Positions 49,111 to 53,086 of a DNA stretch of 64,000 nucleotides are shown here, piece by piece. Source of the stretch: Agromyces sp. LHK192 (GTDB lineage: Bacteria; Actinomycetota; Actinomycetes; Actinomycetales; Microbacteriaceae); assembly GCF_004006235.1 (NCBI RefSeq), contig NZ_CP034753.1, positions 1,426,001 through 1,490,000 on the forward strand. The letters run 5' to 3'. Numbering within the stretch: position 1 is the stretch's first letter; each line of letters begins with the position of its first letter. The notes under the pieces are model-generated. The model was not told the origin of the DNA. It made no database searches and saw only the letters and a program-made list of their open reading frames with translations. A program made the position numbers and the translations under genes.

Positions 49111-50550
49111 ATGGAGTTCTACCGGACGACGCCCACGCACGACCTGACCTACTCCGACGTGTTCCTCGTGCCCAGCCGCTCGGGGGTCGCGAGCCGGCTC
49201 GACGTCGCGCTCGACTCCGGCGACGGGTCGGGTGCCACCGTGCCGCTGGTCGCCTCGAACATGAACTCCGTGACGGGCCCGAGACTGGCGGCATCACTGG
49301 CCAGGAGGGGTGGAATCGCGGTGCTCCCGCAGGACATGCACCTGCAGGACCTCGACGCGGCGATCCGGTCGGTGAAGGCCCAGTCGGCCGTGTTCGACTC
49401 GCCCGTCGCGCTGCATCCGGACCAGACGGCCGCCGACGCGCTCGAACTGCTGCCGCCCTCGCCCGGACACGGGATCGTGCTCGAGGACGAAGGCAATGCG
49501 TACGCGGGTTGCATCGCCGCCGAGCGGCTCGCGAGCGCGTTGCCGGACGCACGGCTCGGGGATCTCGTCCATGCGGGCATCCCGGCGCTCGAGGCGGAGG
49601 ACGTCGAGGACTCGCGCCGCGCGTTCGACCTGATGGTCGACGCCGGGCTCGAGTTCGCCCCCGTGCTGCGGCACGGGAAGGTCGTAGGCACCCTCAGCCG
49701 TCGCAGCGCACTGCGCGGCACGATCTACCGCCCGAACGTGGACGCGGCGGGCCGGCTCCGCGTCGCGGCGGCGGTGGGCATCAACGGCGACGTCGCGGCC
49801 AAGGCCCGTGCGCTCGCCGACGCCGGCGTCGACCTCCTCGTCGTCGACACGGCGCACGGACACCAGGAGGGGATGGTGCGCGCGATCCGCACCGTGCGGG
49901 ACCTCGACCTGGGGCTGCGCATCGCGGCGGGCAACATCGTCACCGCGGCTGCGGTCGCCGACCTCGTCGACGCGGGAGCGGACATCCTCAAGGTCGGCGT
50001 CGGTCCTGGGGCGATGTGCACCACCCGCATGATGACGGCCGTCGGCCGGCCGCAGTTCTCGGCCGTGCTCGAGACGGCCGACGCGGCGCGGGAGCTCGGC
50101 GCGCACGTCTGGGCCGACGGCGGGGTCCGGTATCCGCGCGACGTCGCGCTCGCGCTGGCGGCGGGGGCATCCGCCGTCATGATCGGATCGTGGTTCGCCG
50201 GAACGATCGAGGCCCCGGGGAGACTGCGCCGCGACGAGTCCGGCCGGCTCTTCAAGGAGAGCTGGGGCATGGCGTCGACCAAGGCCGTCCGCGAGCGCTT
50301 CGACCGCCTCTCGCCCTACGAGCTCGCCCGCCGCGAACTGTTCGCCGAGGGCATCTCGAGCTCCTCGATCTACCTCGACCCGCTCCGGCCCTCGATCGAG
50401 GACCTGCTCGACATGATCCTGTCGGGGGTGCGCAGCTCGGCGACGTATGCCGGGGCCCGCACGCTCGCCGAGTTCCGGGAGCGCGCGCTGGTCGGCATCC
50501 AGTCCGCGGCCGGATACGAGGAGGGCAAGGCGCTGCCGGTCAGCTGGTGA
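49111..50550 (+). CDS. guaB1: GuaB1-type GMP reductase (IMP dehydrogenase family)
   Basis: The 479-residue TIM-barrel enzyme starts [17 protein letters not shown], has two CBS motifs in the middle (about residues 95-210) and the catalytic loop [23 protein letters not shown] with the nucleophilic Cys. In actinobacteria GuaB1 is separate from the true GuaB2, and the mycobacterial enzyme acts as a GMP reductase (GMP to IMP, NADPH); I follow that. The next genes are two CNNM-type proteins, as in Rv1843c-Rv1842c-Rv1841c. The ATG has TAGCGT 7 bases upstream, so the mRNA is likely leaderless. Confidence 0.88.
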
Positions 50551-50614
50551 GCGCGGTCCGTGCGGGGCCGGCCCGTCGTCGCGCACACGCGGCGATCGCA
50601 CGGAACGCCTCCGA

Positions 50615-50620
50615 TATACT
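50615..50620 (+). promoter_or_regulatory. -10 element of the leader ORF/CNNM operon
   Basis: TATACT (50615-50620) is a near-perfect -10, 9 bases before the ATG of a 25-codon leader ORF and 80 bases before the first CNNM gene. The -35 position is weak. The transcript would begin at or just before the leader start codon. Confidence 0.7.
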
Positions 50621-50629
50621 GACGCGACC

Positions 50630-50707
50630 ATGGATGATCCTCCCTCTGCGAGTCCGACTGCCCATAGACCCTCGCCCGTGATCGATCGGGGAGGTCCGGA
50701 TGTCTGA
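50630..50707 (+). CDS. Proline-rich leader peptide (putative Mg2+-responsive uORF)
   Basis: The ORF encodes 25 residues starting MDDPPSASP and has six prolines. It sits at the 5' end of the mRNA and ends 8 bases inside the next gene (TGA 50705-50707; next ATG 50700). Codons are unlike the genome's: GAT GAT, CCT, TCT, AGT, ACT, CAT, AGA, GGA, GGT. The pair CCT-CCC (50639-50644) can base-pair with the downstream ribosome-binding site GGGAGG (50689-50694). Enterobacterial MgtL begins with acidic residues and prolines and senses Mg2+ by ribosome destabilisation; the downstream genes here are Mg2+/Co2+ transporter-like. The role is inferred by analogy. Confidence 0.55.
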   Translation: MDDPPSASPTAHRPSPVIDRGGPDV

Positions 50708-52052
50708 GTGGATCCTGCTCGCCATCGGCCTCCTGCTCACGATCGGCACGGGCTTGTTCGTCGCCAGTGAGTTCGCGCTGGTCAATCTCGATCGCGCCGA
50801 CCTCGAGGCGCGTCGCGCGCGAGGCGAGACCCGGCTCGGGATGACCATCGCCGCGCTGAAGATCACCTCGACGCACCTCTCGAGCGCGCAGCTGGGCATC
50901 ACGCTCACCACGCTCCTCACGGGCTACACGATGGAACCGGCGATCTCGTCGCTGCTGCGCGGTCCGCTCGCCTCGATCGGCATCCCGGAGGCGGTCGTCC
51001 CCGTCGTCGGGACGACGGTCGCCGTCGTCGTCGCCACCCTGCTCTCGATGGTGATCGGCGAGCTGGTGCCGAAGAACTTCGCACTCGCGCTGCCCCGGCA
51101 GACCGCGATCGTCGTCGTGCCCTTCCAGACCGCCTTCACGTGGGTGTTCCGGCCCGCGATCGCCGTGCTCAACGGCAGCGCGAACGCCATCATCCGGTCG
51201 CTCGGCATCGAGCCGAAGGAGGAGCTGTCGGGTGCCCGGTCCGCCGAGGAGCTGTCGTCGCTCGTCCGGCGGTCGGCCAGCGCAGGCGTGCTCGAACAGG
51301 ACACCGCGACCCTGCTCGGGCGGACCCTCCGGTTCGCCGACCACGACGCGACCGACGTGATGACGCCCCGGCCGCGCCTGGCCGCCGTCCAGCGCGAGGA
51401 GTCGGCCGAGGCCGTGCTCGAGCTCGCGCGCCAGACCGGCTACTCGAGGTTCCCGGTGTACGACGAGAACCTCGACGACATCGTCGGCGTCGTGCACGTC
51501 AAGCAGGCGATCGCCGTGCCCCGCGACCGGCGCGCGGAGGTGCCGGCGTCGGCGCTGCAGTCCGCGGTCGTCCGGGTGCCTGAGACGGTGCCGCTCGACA
51601 CCCTGCTCGAGGAGCTCCGCGGACGCGGCTTCCAGATGGCCGTCGTGCTGGACGAGTACGGCGGGACCGCCGGCGTCGCGACCCTCGAGGACCTGGTCGA
51701 GGAACTCGTCGGCGAGGTCGCGGACGAACACGACCGCACCCGCGCCGGCATCGTCCGGCGCGGCGACCACGTGAGCTTTCCCGGCATCCTCCGTCCCGAC
51801 GAACTGCTCGATCGCACGGCGATCCGGGTGCCGGAGGACGGCGACTACGAGACCGTCGCCGGCTTCGTCACCAGCTCGCTCGGCCGGCTCGCCGAGATCG
51901 ATGACGAGGTGCCGATCGAGGGCGGGCGCCTGGTCGTGCAGCGACTCGACGGACGCCGCATCGACCGGCTCCGGTTCATCCCGGATCCGCTCCCCGAGGG
52001 TGCCGAGGATGCCCGGACCGACGCGGCCGACCGGAACGGAGGCGACCGATGA
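50700..52052 (+). CDS. CNNM/CorC (HlyC) family membrane protein 1
   Basis: The 450-residue protein has a DUF21/CNNM membrane domain (residues 1-190: ILLAIGLLLTIGTGLFVASEFALVNLDRADLE, HLSSAQLGITLTTLLTGYTMEPAI, SMVIGELVPKNFALALP), a CBS pair (VMTPRPRLAAVQREESAEAVLELARQTGYSRFPVYDENLDDIVGVVHVKQ ... AVVLDEYGGTAGVATLEDLVEELVGEVADEHD) and a CorC_HlyC domain. Such proteins act in Mg2+ export or Co2+ resistance and bind Mg-ATP through the CBS pair. GGGGAGG lies 6 bases upstream of the ATG and may be masked by pairing with the leader ORF. The next gene overlaps by 4 bases. Confidence 0.88.
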   Translation: MSEWILLAIGLLLTIGTGLFVASEFALVNLDRADLEARRARGETRLGMTIAALKITSTHLSSAQLGITLTTLLTGYTMEPAISSLLRGPLASIGIPEAVVPVVGTTVAVVVATLLSMVIGELVPKNFALALPRQTAIVVVPFQTAFTWVFRPAIAVLNGSANAIIRSLGIEPKEELSGARSAEELSSLVRRSASAGVLEQDTATLLGRTLRFADHDATDVMTPRPRLAAVQREESAEAVLELARQTGYSRFPVYDENLDDIVGVVHVKQAIAVPRDRRAEVPASALQSAVVRVPETVPLDTLLEELRGRGFQMAVVLDEYGGTAGVATLEDLVEELVGEVADEHDRTRAGIVRRGDHVSFPGILRPDELLDRTAIRVPEDGDYETVAGFVTSSLGRLAEIDDEVPIEGGRLVVQRLDGRRIDRLRFIPDPLPEGAEDARTDAADRNGGDR

Positions 52053-53086
52053 GCGACTGGATGGGCATCGTCTGGCTCGTGGTGCTGCTGATCGTCAACG
52101 CGTTCTTCGTCGGCGCCGAGTTCGCCGTCATCTCGGCGCGCCGCTCGCAGATCGAGCCCCTCGCCGAGCGCGGCAGCCGACGGGCGAAGACCGCGCTCTG
52201 GGCCATGGAGCACGCCACGCTGATGCTGGCGATGAGCCAGCTCGGCATCACGATCTGCTCGCTGCTGATCCTGAACGTGTCGGAGCCGGCGATCCACCAC
52301 CTGCTGGAGATCCCGCTGCACCTCACCGGCTGGTCGGAGGAGGTCATCGGCACGATCGCGTTCATCATCGCGCTGGTGCTCGTGAGCTACCTGCACGTCG
52401 TGTTCGGCGAGATGATCCCGAAGAACCTGTCGTTCTCGCTCCCTGACAAGGCCGTGCTGCTGCTCGCGCCCCCGCTCGTGTGGGTCGCGCGCGTGTTCCG
52501 CTTCGCGATCGTGGCGCTGAACGCGACCGCGAACGGCATCCTGCGGCTGTTCGGCGTCGAGCCCAAGAACGAGGCCTCGTCGACGTTCACGCTCGAGGAG
52601 GTGCAGACCATCGTCGACCAGTCGCGCCGCGAGGGCGTGCTCGAGGACTCGAGCGGCACCCTGTCGGCCGCGTTCGAGTTCACGACGAAGCGGGTCGACG
52701 ACGTCGCTGTGCCGATGTCGGAGCTCGTCAGCCTGCCGCCCGGCGCCACGCCCGCGGACGTCGAACGCGCGGTGGCGCGGCACGGCTTCTCGCGCTACGT
52801 GCTCGTCGGCGCCGACGGCGAACCCGACGGATACGTGCACCTCAAGGACGTCATCGACCTCGACGACGACGAGTTCGACGACCCGCTGCCCGCGAAGCGC
52901 GTGCGCCGGCTCGTCTCGATCTTCGCGCACACCGAGCTGGAGGACGCGCTCGCCACGATGCGTCGACTCGGCACCCACGTCGCCAGGGCGTTCGACGAGG
53001 ACGGCGGCACCACGGGCGTGATCTTCCTCGAGGACATCATCGAAGAGCTCGTCGGCGAAGTGCAGGACGCCACCAGGCGGGTCTGA
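52049..53086 (+). CDS. CNNM/CorC (HlyC) family membrane protein 2
   Basis: The 345-residue paralogue shares the CNNM domain (VVLLIVNAFFVGAEFAVISARRSQIEPLAERGSRRAKT, LAMSQLGITICSLLILNVSEPAI, FGEMIPKNLSFSLP) and CBS pair (RVDDVAVPMSELVSLPPGATPADVERAVARHGFSRYVLVGADGEPDGYVHLKDVID ... RAFDEDGGTTGVIFLEDIIEELVGEVQD) but lacks the C-terminal CorC_HlyC domain. The M-T-P-R of the first CBS motif is changed to P-M-S-E. The ATGA overlap with the first gene suggests a heteromeric complex. The pair matches Rv1842c-Rv1841c. Confidence 0.87.
   Translation: MSDWMGIVWLVVLLIVNAFFVGAEFAVISARRSQIEPLAERGSRRAKTALWAMEHATLMLAMSQLGITICSLLILNVSEPAIHHLLEIPLHLTGWSEEVIGTIAFIIALVLVSYLHVVFGEMIPKNLSFSLPDKAVLLLAPPLVWVARVFRFAIVALNATANGILRLFGVEPKNEASSTFTLEEVQTIVDQSRREGVLEDSSGTLSAAFEFTTKRVDDVAVPMSELVSLPPGATPADVERAVARHGFSRYVLVGADGEPDGYVHLKDVIDLDDDEFDDPLPAKRVRRLVSIFAHTELEDALATMRRLGTHVARAFDEDGGTTGVIFLEDIIEELVGEVQDATRRV

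Follow-up and report, generated by a model that had tools for sequence, protein, structure and literature searches.

The question raised by this locus is what a reading frame of only 25 codons does when it begins next to a promoter element and ends inside a gene of the CNNM/CorC transporter type. The locus was analyzed within a 64,000-nucleotide stretch of Agromyces sp. LHK192 (contig NZ_CP034753.1, positions 1,426,001 to 1,490,000), called the window here; positions are those of the window, and all features lie on its forward strand. The genome is 4.09 Mb in size and is placed in the family Microbacteriaceae, order Micrococcales. Upstream is guaB1 (49111..50550), assigned to GMP reductase by the NCBIfam model GMPRedGuaB1 (743 bits; cut-off, 675), which lies outside the proposed switch. 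A -10 promoter element, TATACT (50615-50620), is followed after a gap of 9 nt by the ATG (50630) of the leader ORF, MDDPPSASPTAHRPSPVIDRGGPDV (50630..50707), which has six prolines among its 25 sense codons. Its TGA (50705-50707) lies 8 nt into the first CNNM gene, which starts at 50700, and the overlap ATGTCTGA (50700..50707) joins the leader stop to the CNNM start at a spacing of -8. Codons 2 to 5 (50633..50644), Asp-Asp-Pro-Pro, form the core motif and the putative ribosome-destabilizing stretch. Within them, CCT-CCC (50639-50644) is exactly complementary to GGGAGG (50689..50694), the likely CNNM ribosome-binding site in Agromyces sp. LHK192. A first-pass annotation had described the box, the gap, the ORF and its prolines, the overlap, and the complementary hexamers, and all coordinates were right on rereading. 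It had also called the leader codons atypical of the genome, and this is borne out by four neighboring reading frames (the start of one being set approximately), in which CCT makes up 4 of 133 proline codons and AGA 3 of 2,552 codons.

The presumed target of the leader is the first CNNM/CorC-type transporter gene (50700..52052). Its product matches the Pfam CNNM, CBS, and CorC_HlyC models above cut-off, and every NCBIfam match was below its cut-off. The best solved-structure matches are 7m1t and 7m1u, which we take to be archaeal CorB, and CorC 4hg0. The second CNNM gene (52049..53086) overlaps the first at an ATGA and has no leader of its own. No Pfam match was found for the leader peptide, and the region 50400-50900 gave no Rfam match at E values up to 10. 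A scan found no site resembling an intrinsic terminator at the leader, and a covariance-model search found no M-box riboswitch in the genome. When CorA, MgtE, and the M-box were searched for in this genome, one CorA was found, and no MgtE or M-box. Among the titles and abstracts listed by searches of an open-access library, none concerned this leader.

A scan did not find a full sigma-70 consensus promoter, with a -35 box, at the leader; the promoter is called because of the -10 box and its conserved spacing. In all 59 same-genus genomes compared, a TANNNT ends 8 to 10 nt before the leader ATG. From the -10 spacing we infer a start at A50627 and hence a predicted 5' untranslated region of three nucleotides, ACC (50627..50629). 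The leader mRNA thus probably begins about 3 nt before the ATG, because the -10 box ends 9 nt upstream of it and because A occupies position -3 in 61 of the 79 strict leaders of the family described below. The first-pass annotation had called the ORF leaderless; near-leaderless is what the spacing suggests, and strictly leaderless was given up. The arrangement argues for a transcription start just upstream of the ATG and not downstream of 50632.

The region 50450-50850 was compared with 100 relatives by blastn. In many same-genus genomes the match starts at about 50606-50613, immediately ahead of TATACT, the remainder of the intergenic region having diverged or guaB1 being located elsewhere. 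Each of the 59 same-genus genomes, own genome included, has a single ATGGA within 110 nt before the CNNM gene. Across these genomes, codons 2 to 5 offer 472 first and second positions, of which 1 is changed (giving His3), while every one of the four third positions varies; the two acidic residues are conserved to about the same degree as the prolines. The leaders are 24, 25, 27, or 29 residues long, and despite these differing lengths the frame is constant and the CNNM overlap is 8 nt in 59 of 59. Judged from these sequence comparisons, selection acts on the encoded leader peptide and on its junction with the CNNM gene, because first and second codon positions are nearly fixed, third positions vary, and both frame and overlap are constant.

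These same data bear on two other explanations. One is that the conserved letters are a nucleotide element for leaderless initiation and not a peptide signal, as might be suspected from the location of the motif at the 5' end of the predicted mRNA. Such an element does not account for codons whose third positions vary while the first and second are fixed, and the DPP motif is internal (MSSDARVDSDPPST) in one other family of the order; we regard this explanation as very improbable. The other is a small protein, encoded by the ORF, that works in trans. The substitution pattern is indeed that of a protein-coding sequence, but the length ranges from 11 to 63 residues, most of the tail is unconserved, there is no Pfam match, and the ORF runs into the CNNM gene in the loci studied, all of which makes a trans-acting protein barely credible.

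A search of relatives for a conserved short ORF with an acidic and proline-rich beginning was a check proposed with the first-pass annotation. For the family, the CNNM N-terminus was searched in 110 genomes, which gave 109 matches at E values up to 1e-30 and covered 84 of 85 genera. The family set consists of L078 and L082-L191, 111 loci, of which L108 was dropped for having too little upstream sequence, so that 110 were used. It omits the second copy of G535; G533, G469, G502, G534, G453, G488, G506, and G465; and also G060 (L060), which has a strict leader. Several of the omitted genomes are small, so the family fractions may lean toward larger genomes, and the loci are not independent, as some genomes contribute a second copy and two of the genomes belong to the same genus as the window. 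Another set consists of 80 named loci, the best 80 of 499 found, which are close kin and come partly from genomes that also appear here under G handles; they represent Agromyces, Cryobacterium, Leifsonia, Plantibacter, Mycetocola, Glaciibacter, Rathayibacter, and other genera.

The check had a positive outcome. The ORF is present in 59 of 59 same-genus genomes, and a strict leader, defined as M[DE][DE]PP in a frame ending at or near the CNNM start, occurs at 77 of these best 80 named loci and at 79 of the 110 family loci. The three named loci without it have MDHPP (twice) or MDDPHP (once). The 79 strict family leaders are 79 distinct peptides of 11 to 63 residues with tails of differing sequence and length; Asp is found at position 2 in 78 of them and at position 3 in 75. 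A TANNNT ends 7 to 11 nt before the ATG in 78, the exception being L107. Of the 31 family loci that lack the strict motif, 24 keep a near-leaderless ORF that ends near the CNNM start, and 23 of these 24 leaders have an acidic residue within residues 2 to 5, for example MDDPHHKP, MDDGHSPG, and MDGHRPAP. An acidic/proline run at the N-terminus of the peptide, one of the features by which MgtL leaders are recognized, is thus found in the Agromyces leader and in its relatives.

The layout was also scored without regard to the motif, as a TANNNT ending 6 to 11 nt upstream of an ATG, GTG, or TTG that opens an ORF of fewer than 75 residues, with its start within 220 nt upstream of the tested start and its end within 60 nt of it. 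This architecture was found at 80 of 80 named loci and 102 of 110 family loci, leaving 8 family loci without it. In controls with the named loci, it was found at 7 of 2,681 random positions, 0 of 80 reverse strands, and 0 of 80 second-CNNM starts. With an acidic residue in residues 2 to 5 required in addition, the counts were 80 of 80 named loci, 101 of 110 family loci, and 0 of 2,681 random positions. Eleven genomes with two CNNM copies were examined; the leader is on both copies in nine and on one in two. These results point to the conserved peptide start and the placement of the stop as the working parts of the leader, because both are kept while the tails vary. At L149 and L168, two loci of one genus (G463 and G539), CNNM copies have no leader, and the CNNM gene itself seems to begin roughly 10 nt downstream of a -10-like box; loss of the leader may have left CNNM leaderless at these loci.

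Outside the family, the layout persists more widely than the motif. Elsewhere in the order, an overlapping near-leaderless ORF was found at 31 of 40 loci, three of them MDDP-type copies, compared with 70 of 2,144 control positions; L213 was dropped as too short and L228 for want of a match, and for short loci the reverse strand served as control. Acidic-proline neighbors occur in 20 of these 31 ORFs, hardly more than the 16.1 expected from composition. Among class members outside the order, 6 of 26 loci have the architecture (control, 3 of 1,238). The strict motif is, by these surveys, chiefly a trait of the Microbacteriaceae, and the architecture is wider. The architecture may be older than the DDPP motif, which would then not be essential to it.

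This breadth speaks for a rival reading in which the leader is a coupling device or throttle without sensing, a ribosome entry point at which DDPP keeps CNNM expression constitutively low, since the overlapping near-leaderless ORF is found across the order even without MDDPP. A mere entry point, however, needs no near-constant DDPP in 79 otherwise different leaders, and many sequences could serve as a throttle. We therefore consider a leader without sensing unlikely, and less so than the other alternatives treated here.

The three MDDP-type copies belong to one other family of the order (G065, G083, and G157; loci L196, L197, and L199). Their CNNM copies are 74 to 76% identical to the Agromyces CNNM and carry the leaders MDDPPSHMPWPL, MDDPPSHMPWPL, and MDDPSHKPMP, respectively; among the additional CNNM copies in the same genomes, the next best reach 50 to 53% identity. 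This may reflect horizontal transfer of a CNNM gene together with its leader. In another family of the order (L208-L211), overlapping leaders carry an internal acidic-proline motif, MSSDARVDSDPPST and similar, with an overlap of 4 nt. In a further family (L221, L234, and L240), long acidic open frames precede CNNM (METMAATGDYDST...EGHRPWP); they share an HRPxP motif and lack a -10 element in the tested position.

Whether the motif also precedes genes of other types was addressed by pattern searches. The DNA motif ATGGANGANCCNCC occurs three times in the Agromyces sp. LHK192 genome, and only the occurrence at CNNM is a leader; judged by eye, one of the others falls within a frame resembling ATP synthase and the remaining one within an open frame of 165 codons. 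A TATAYT-N9-MDDPP-like pattern was found in 8 of 396 genomes of the order, at seven same-genus CNNM starts and at L078, which is also before CNNM. A TANNNT-N9 pattern was found in 5 of 246 genomes of the phylum, at two same-genus CNNM sites and at three others, and a reversed control pattern likewise matched three phylum genomes. None of the three non-CNNM matches resembles a leader preceding a gene: one is the start of a 201-codon frame, and the others, ORFs of 14 and 19 codons, have no frame of more than 80 codons starting nearby. Exact patterns of promoter plus motif catch only part of the true leaders, and within the 396 order and 246 phylum genomes these searches found no second gene type behind the motif.

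The exact complementarity of CCT-CCC and GGGAGG in the window had led the first-pass annotation to propose that the CNNM ribosome-binding site is masked by pairing with the leader and that the position of the ribosome decides whether it is. This was examined in an alignment of 58 of the 59 same-genus sequences (A1; one duplicate removed). The pairing is formed in 89.1% of cells, compared with 89.3% when partners are shuffled, and 18 of 58 sequences lack its third pair. The lowest-energy fold of the leader does bury the ribosome-binding site, though by pairing it with codons 13 to 17 and not with codons 4 and 5. That helix is formed in 82.9% of cells, compared with 82.5% in shuffles (61 of 500 were as high), and has four cells changed on both sides, compared with 1.4 in shuffles (14 of 500 reach this number). 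Both pairings also exceed their slid versions (89.1% compared with at most 79.0%, and 82.9% compared with at most 64.5%), an excess that is expected for structures read from these same sequences. Against masking, covariation scores in the 58 sequences were not above shuffles for either pairing, RNAalifold found a compensatory change in 0 of 12 pairs, and the leader RNA was not more stable than its shuffles (z = +0.99; 171 of 200 shuffles equaled or exceeded its stability). Nor is the ribosome-binding site kept across the family, where a 4-base Shine-Dalgarno-like match precedes CNNM in only 30 of the 79 loci with strict leaders. Neither the proposed hexamer pairing nor the suggested fold thus gained support, and masking is in our judgment highly unlikely. 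RNA structure, as far as these alignments go, is not what evolution visibly keeps at the leader. Ribosomes passing through the leader may nevertheless open local structure.

The limited occurrence of Shine-Dalgarno-like sequences has a further implication. Because only 30 of 79 CNNM genes with strict leaders have such a match, CNNM translation probably depends on ribosomes that arrive by way of the leader. The leader overlaps CNNM by 8 nt in 33, 11 nt in 21, 4 nt in 13, and 1 nt in 3 of the 79 strict family leaders; the division between 8 and 11 depends on which CNNM start codon is taken, here the nearest, and the class of overlap is uncertain at loci with an ambiguous CNNM start. In overlapping gene pairs, spacings of -4, -1, and -8 are enriched, -4 most of all (PMC12548453). 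One of these three spacings was found at 49 of the 79 family loci, and a further 21 are at 11. The same source reports that coupling weakens as the overlap grows, and overlaps of 8 or 11 would for this reason be less favorable than one of 4.

Proline codon 4 is CCT in 54 of the 79 strict family leaders, though CCT is rare in neighboring genes. Slow decoding of CCT at codon 4 by an undermodified proline tRNA is one idea, by analogy with MgtL, where undermodified proline tRNA reportedly leads to slow decoding. The tail contains a second motif, HxPxP, represented in Agromyces sp. LHK192 by codons 12 to 17, His-Arg-Pro-Ser-Pro-Val (50663..50680), which include rare codons. It occurs in 27 of 79 family leaders (shuffle mean, 1.8; maximum, 8) and in 45 of 77 named leaders (shuffle mean, 2.2; maximum, 7), with kinship left in both counts. 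The usual form is His-Arg/Lys/Ser-Pro-x-Pro-Val/Leu, and its first two positions mostly use codons ending in A or T (CAT in 49 of 72; AGA in 41 and AAA in 16 of 72). Most of these codons are rare, CAT for the first residue and AGA, AAA, or AGT for the second, and in these 72 HxPxP leader rows CAT before AGA, AAA, or AGT puts a TAG or TAA in another frame. HxPxP might serve as a further stall site, as a stretch of slow codons, or as a signal in the RNA.

Adjacent prolines with an unusual CCT (54 of 79 at codon 4, compared with 4 of 133 in the window genes) would also suit a leader that responds to a signal other than Mg2+: the supply of prolyl-tRNA or EF-P, methylation of tRNA-Pro, polyamines, or general ribosome stress. 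A CorC-domain protein, PaeA, exports polyamines according to PMC12421838, and a tuberculosis case described in PMC9973355 also counts in favor of such a signal. The two acidic residues, however, vary about as little as the prolines do, which fits destabilization of the ribosome better than proline starvation, and the target is a CNNM gene. We hold another signal to be distinctly unlikely.

The reading that we prefer is a leader peptide that controls in cis whether the CNNM operon is translated, by Mg2+-dependent drop-off of ribosomes at DDPP, with CNNM on at high Mg2+. We consider it about evenly balanced between right and wrong. Transcription would start about 3 nt before the leader ATG, so that ribosomes load on the leader. 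With MDDPP at the very N-terminus of the nascent chain, the young elongation complex would be prone to drop-off by intrinsic ribosome destabilization. At high Mg2+, or a high total of ribosome-stabilizing cations, ribosomes would survive to the TGA that overlaps the CNNM start, and completion of the leader would allow CNNM to be translated through termination-reinitiation or local unfolding. At low Mg2+, ribosomes would fall off, and CNNM, predicted from knowledge of its family to be a Mg2+ exporter, would stay low. The peptide-level motif, the position of the -10 box, the overlap, and the lack of a second gene type behind the motif in the pattern searches are observed; from them we infer the drop-off at DDPP, its dependence on Mg2+, the coupling, the sign of the response, the export role, and the transcription start.

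The destabilizing step has precedents. A nascent chain that carries acidic residues with proline among its first 30 residues can destabilize the ribosome (PMC11282234), and codons 2 to 5 of the leader place both kinds of residue within those 30. The cases reported in the literature consulted are EPDP, repeated acidic residues, and Asp2/Glu5; the Agromyces motif is DDPP, and its role would be an extension of these. PMC11282234 describes MgtL, the leader of the enterobacterial mgtA gene, as very short, with acidic residues and prolines alternating at its N-terminus; shortness and an acidic-proline start are shared by the Agromyces leader. Ribosomes drop off at its EPDP at low Mg2+, and by analogy a Mg2+ dependence of translation is proposed for the Agromyces leader. 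The two differ in what follows. Drop-off on MgtL turns on an importer, the product of the downstream mgtA gene, through a Rho-dependent transcription terminator and an RNA switch, whereas the Agromyces leader overlaps a gene of the CNNM/CorC type, its proposed output is reversed, and neither an intrinsic-terminator-like site nor a supported covarying structure was found at it. The comparison is apt as a way of working and not as membership, as target and expected sign differ, and homology is not claimed.

MgtQ is the closest translational case. According to PMC8092293, its Asp2 and Glu5 reduce translation of their own upstream ORF and control translation of mgtB in Salmonella. Like the Agromyces leader, MgtQ has early acidic codons (positions 2 and 5) before a gene of the Mg2+ transporter type. 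It lies in a 219-nt intergenic region and acts through alternative stem-loops, abortion of translation raising MgtB; the Agromyces leader, in contrast, runs into the start of its target, and a search for conserved structure found none there. That destabilization raises the downstream gene in this case (PMC8092293) counts against the mechanism proposed here.

The sign of the proposed response comes from Salmonella. Leader completion is taken to turn CNNM on because corC and mgpA are induced by high Mg2+ in that organism, where CorC and MgpA protect against excess Mg2+, as set out in PMC12421838. The same paper describes YoaL of Escherichia coli and Salmonella, an ORF that, like the Agromyces leader, runs into a CorC-domain gene, in this case mgpA (yoaE), which is induced by high Mg2+. 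When the start codon of YoaL is replaced, the level of the downstream protein falls. The YoaL-mgpA overlap is 13 nt in E. coli K-12. YoaL starts with MDRHRRHFSIRP, has 52 residues, and lacks an acidic-proline run, unlike the Agromyces leader, and kinship is not claimed. For CorC (YbeX), an early N-terminal destabilizing sequence has been proposed to raise expression at high Mg2+ (PMC12421838); that motif is within the CorC protein itself, whereas the Agromyces motif is in a separate upstream ORF. In Mycobacterium tuberculosis, the Mbox links Mg2+ to control of a small upstream ORF (PMC12810186). There the sensor is a riboswitch RNA; the Agromyces leader has no Rfam match nearby and its genome no M-box.

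In the literature consulted, every ribosome-destabilization leader in print is enterobacterial: MgtL and MgtQ, together with YoaL and CorC, which have been suggested to belong here. Drop-off on MgtL and MgtQ, the pair that has been tested, turns importers on through RNA structures. The leader described here may represent a second, independently evolved class of Mg2+-sensing leader, in the Actinomycetes, wired in reverse so that ribosome survival leads to an exporter without an RNA switch, nearly universal in one family and built on an overlapping near-leaderless ORF as an older, order-wide platform; we advance this broader view tentatively and with somewhat less than even confidence. If it is true, one physical principle has been exploited twice, in the actinobacterial family with the sign reversed and with a simpler read-out. 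The 79 distinct natural leaders are in themselves a resource for measuring what makes a nascent chain destabilize the ribosome. Regulation of CNNM/CorC genes is called unclear for Salmonella in PMC12421838, and the leader, if it works as proposed, would be a directly testable control element for such genes. In Agromyces and its family, the ribosome itself would then report whether the Mg2+ of the cell calls for an exporter.
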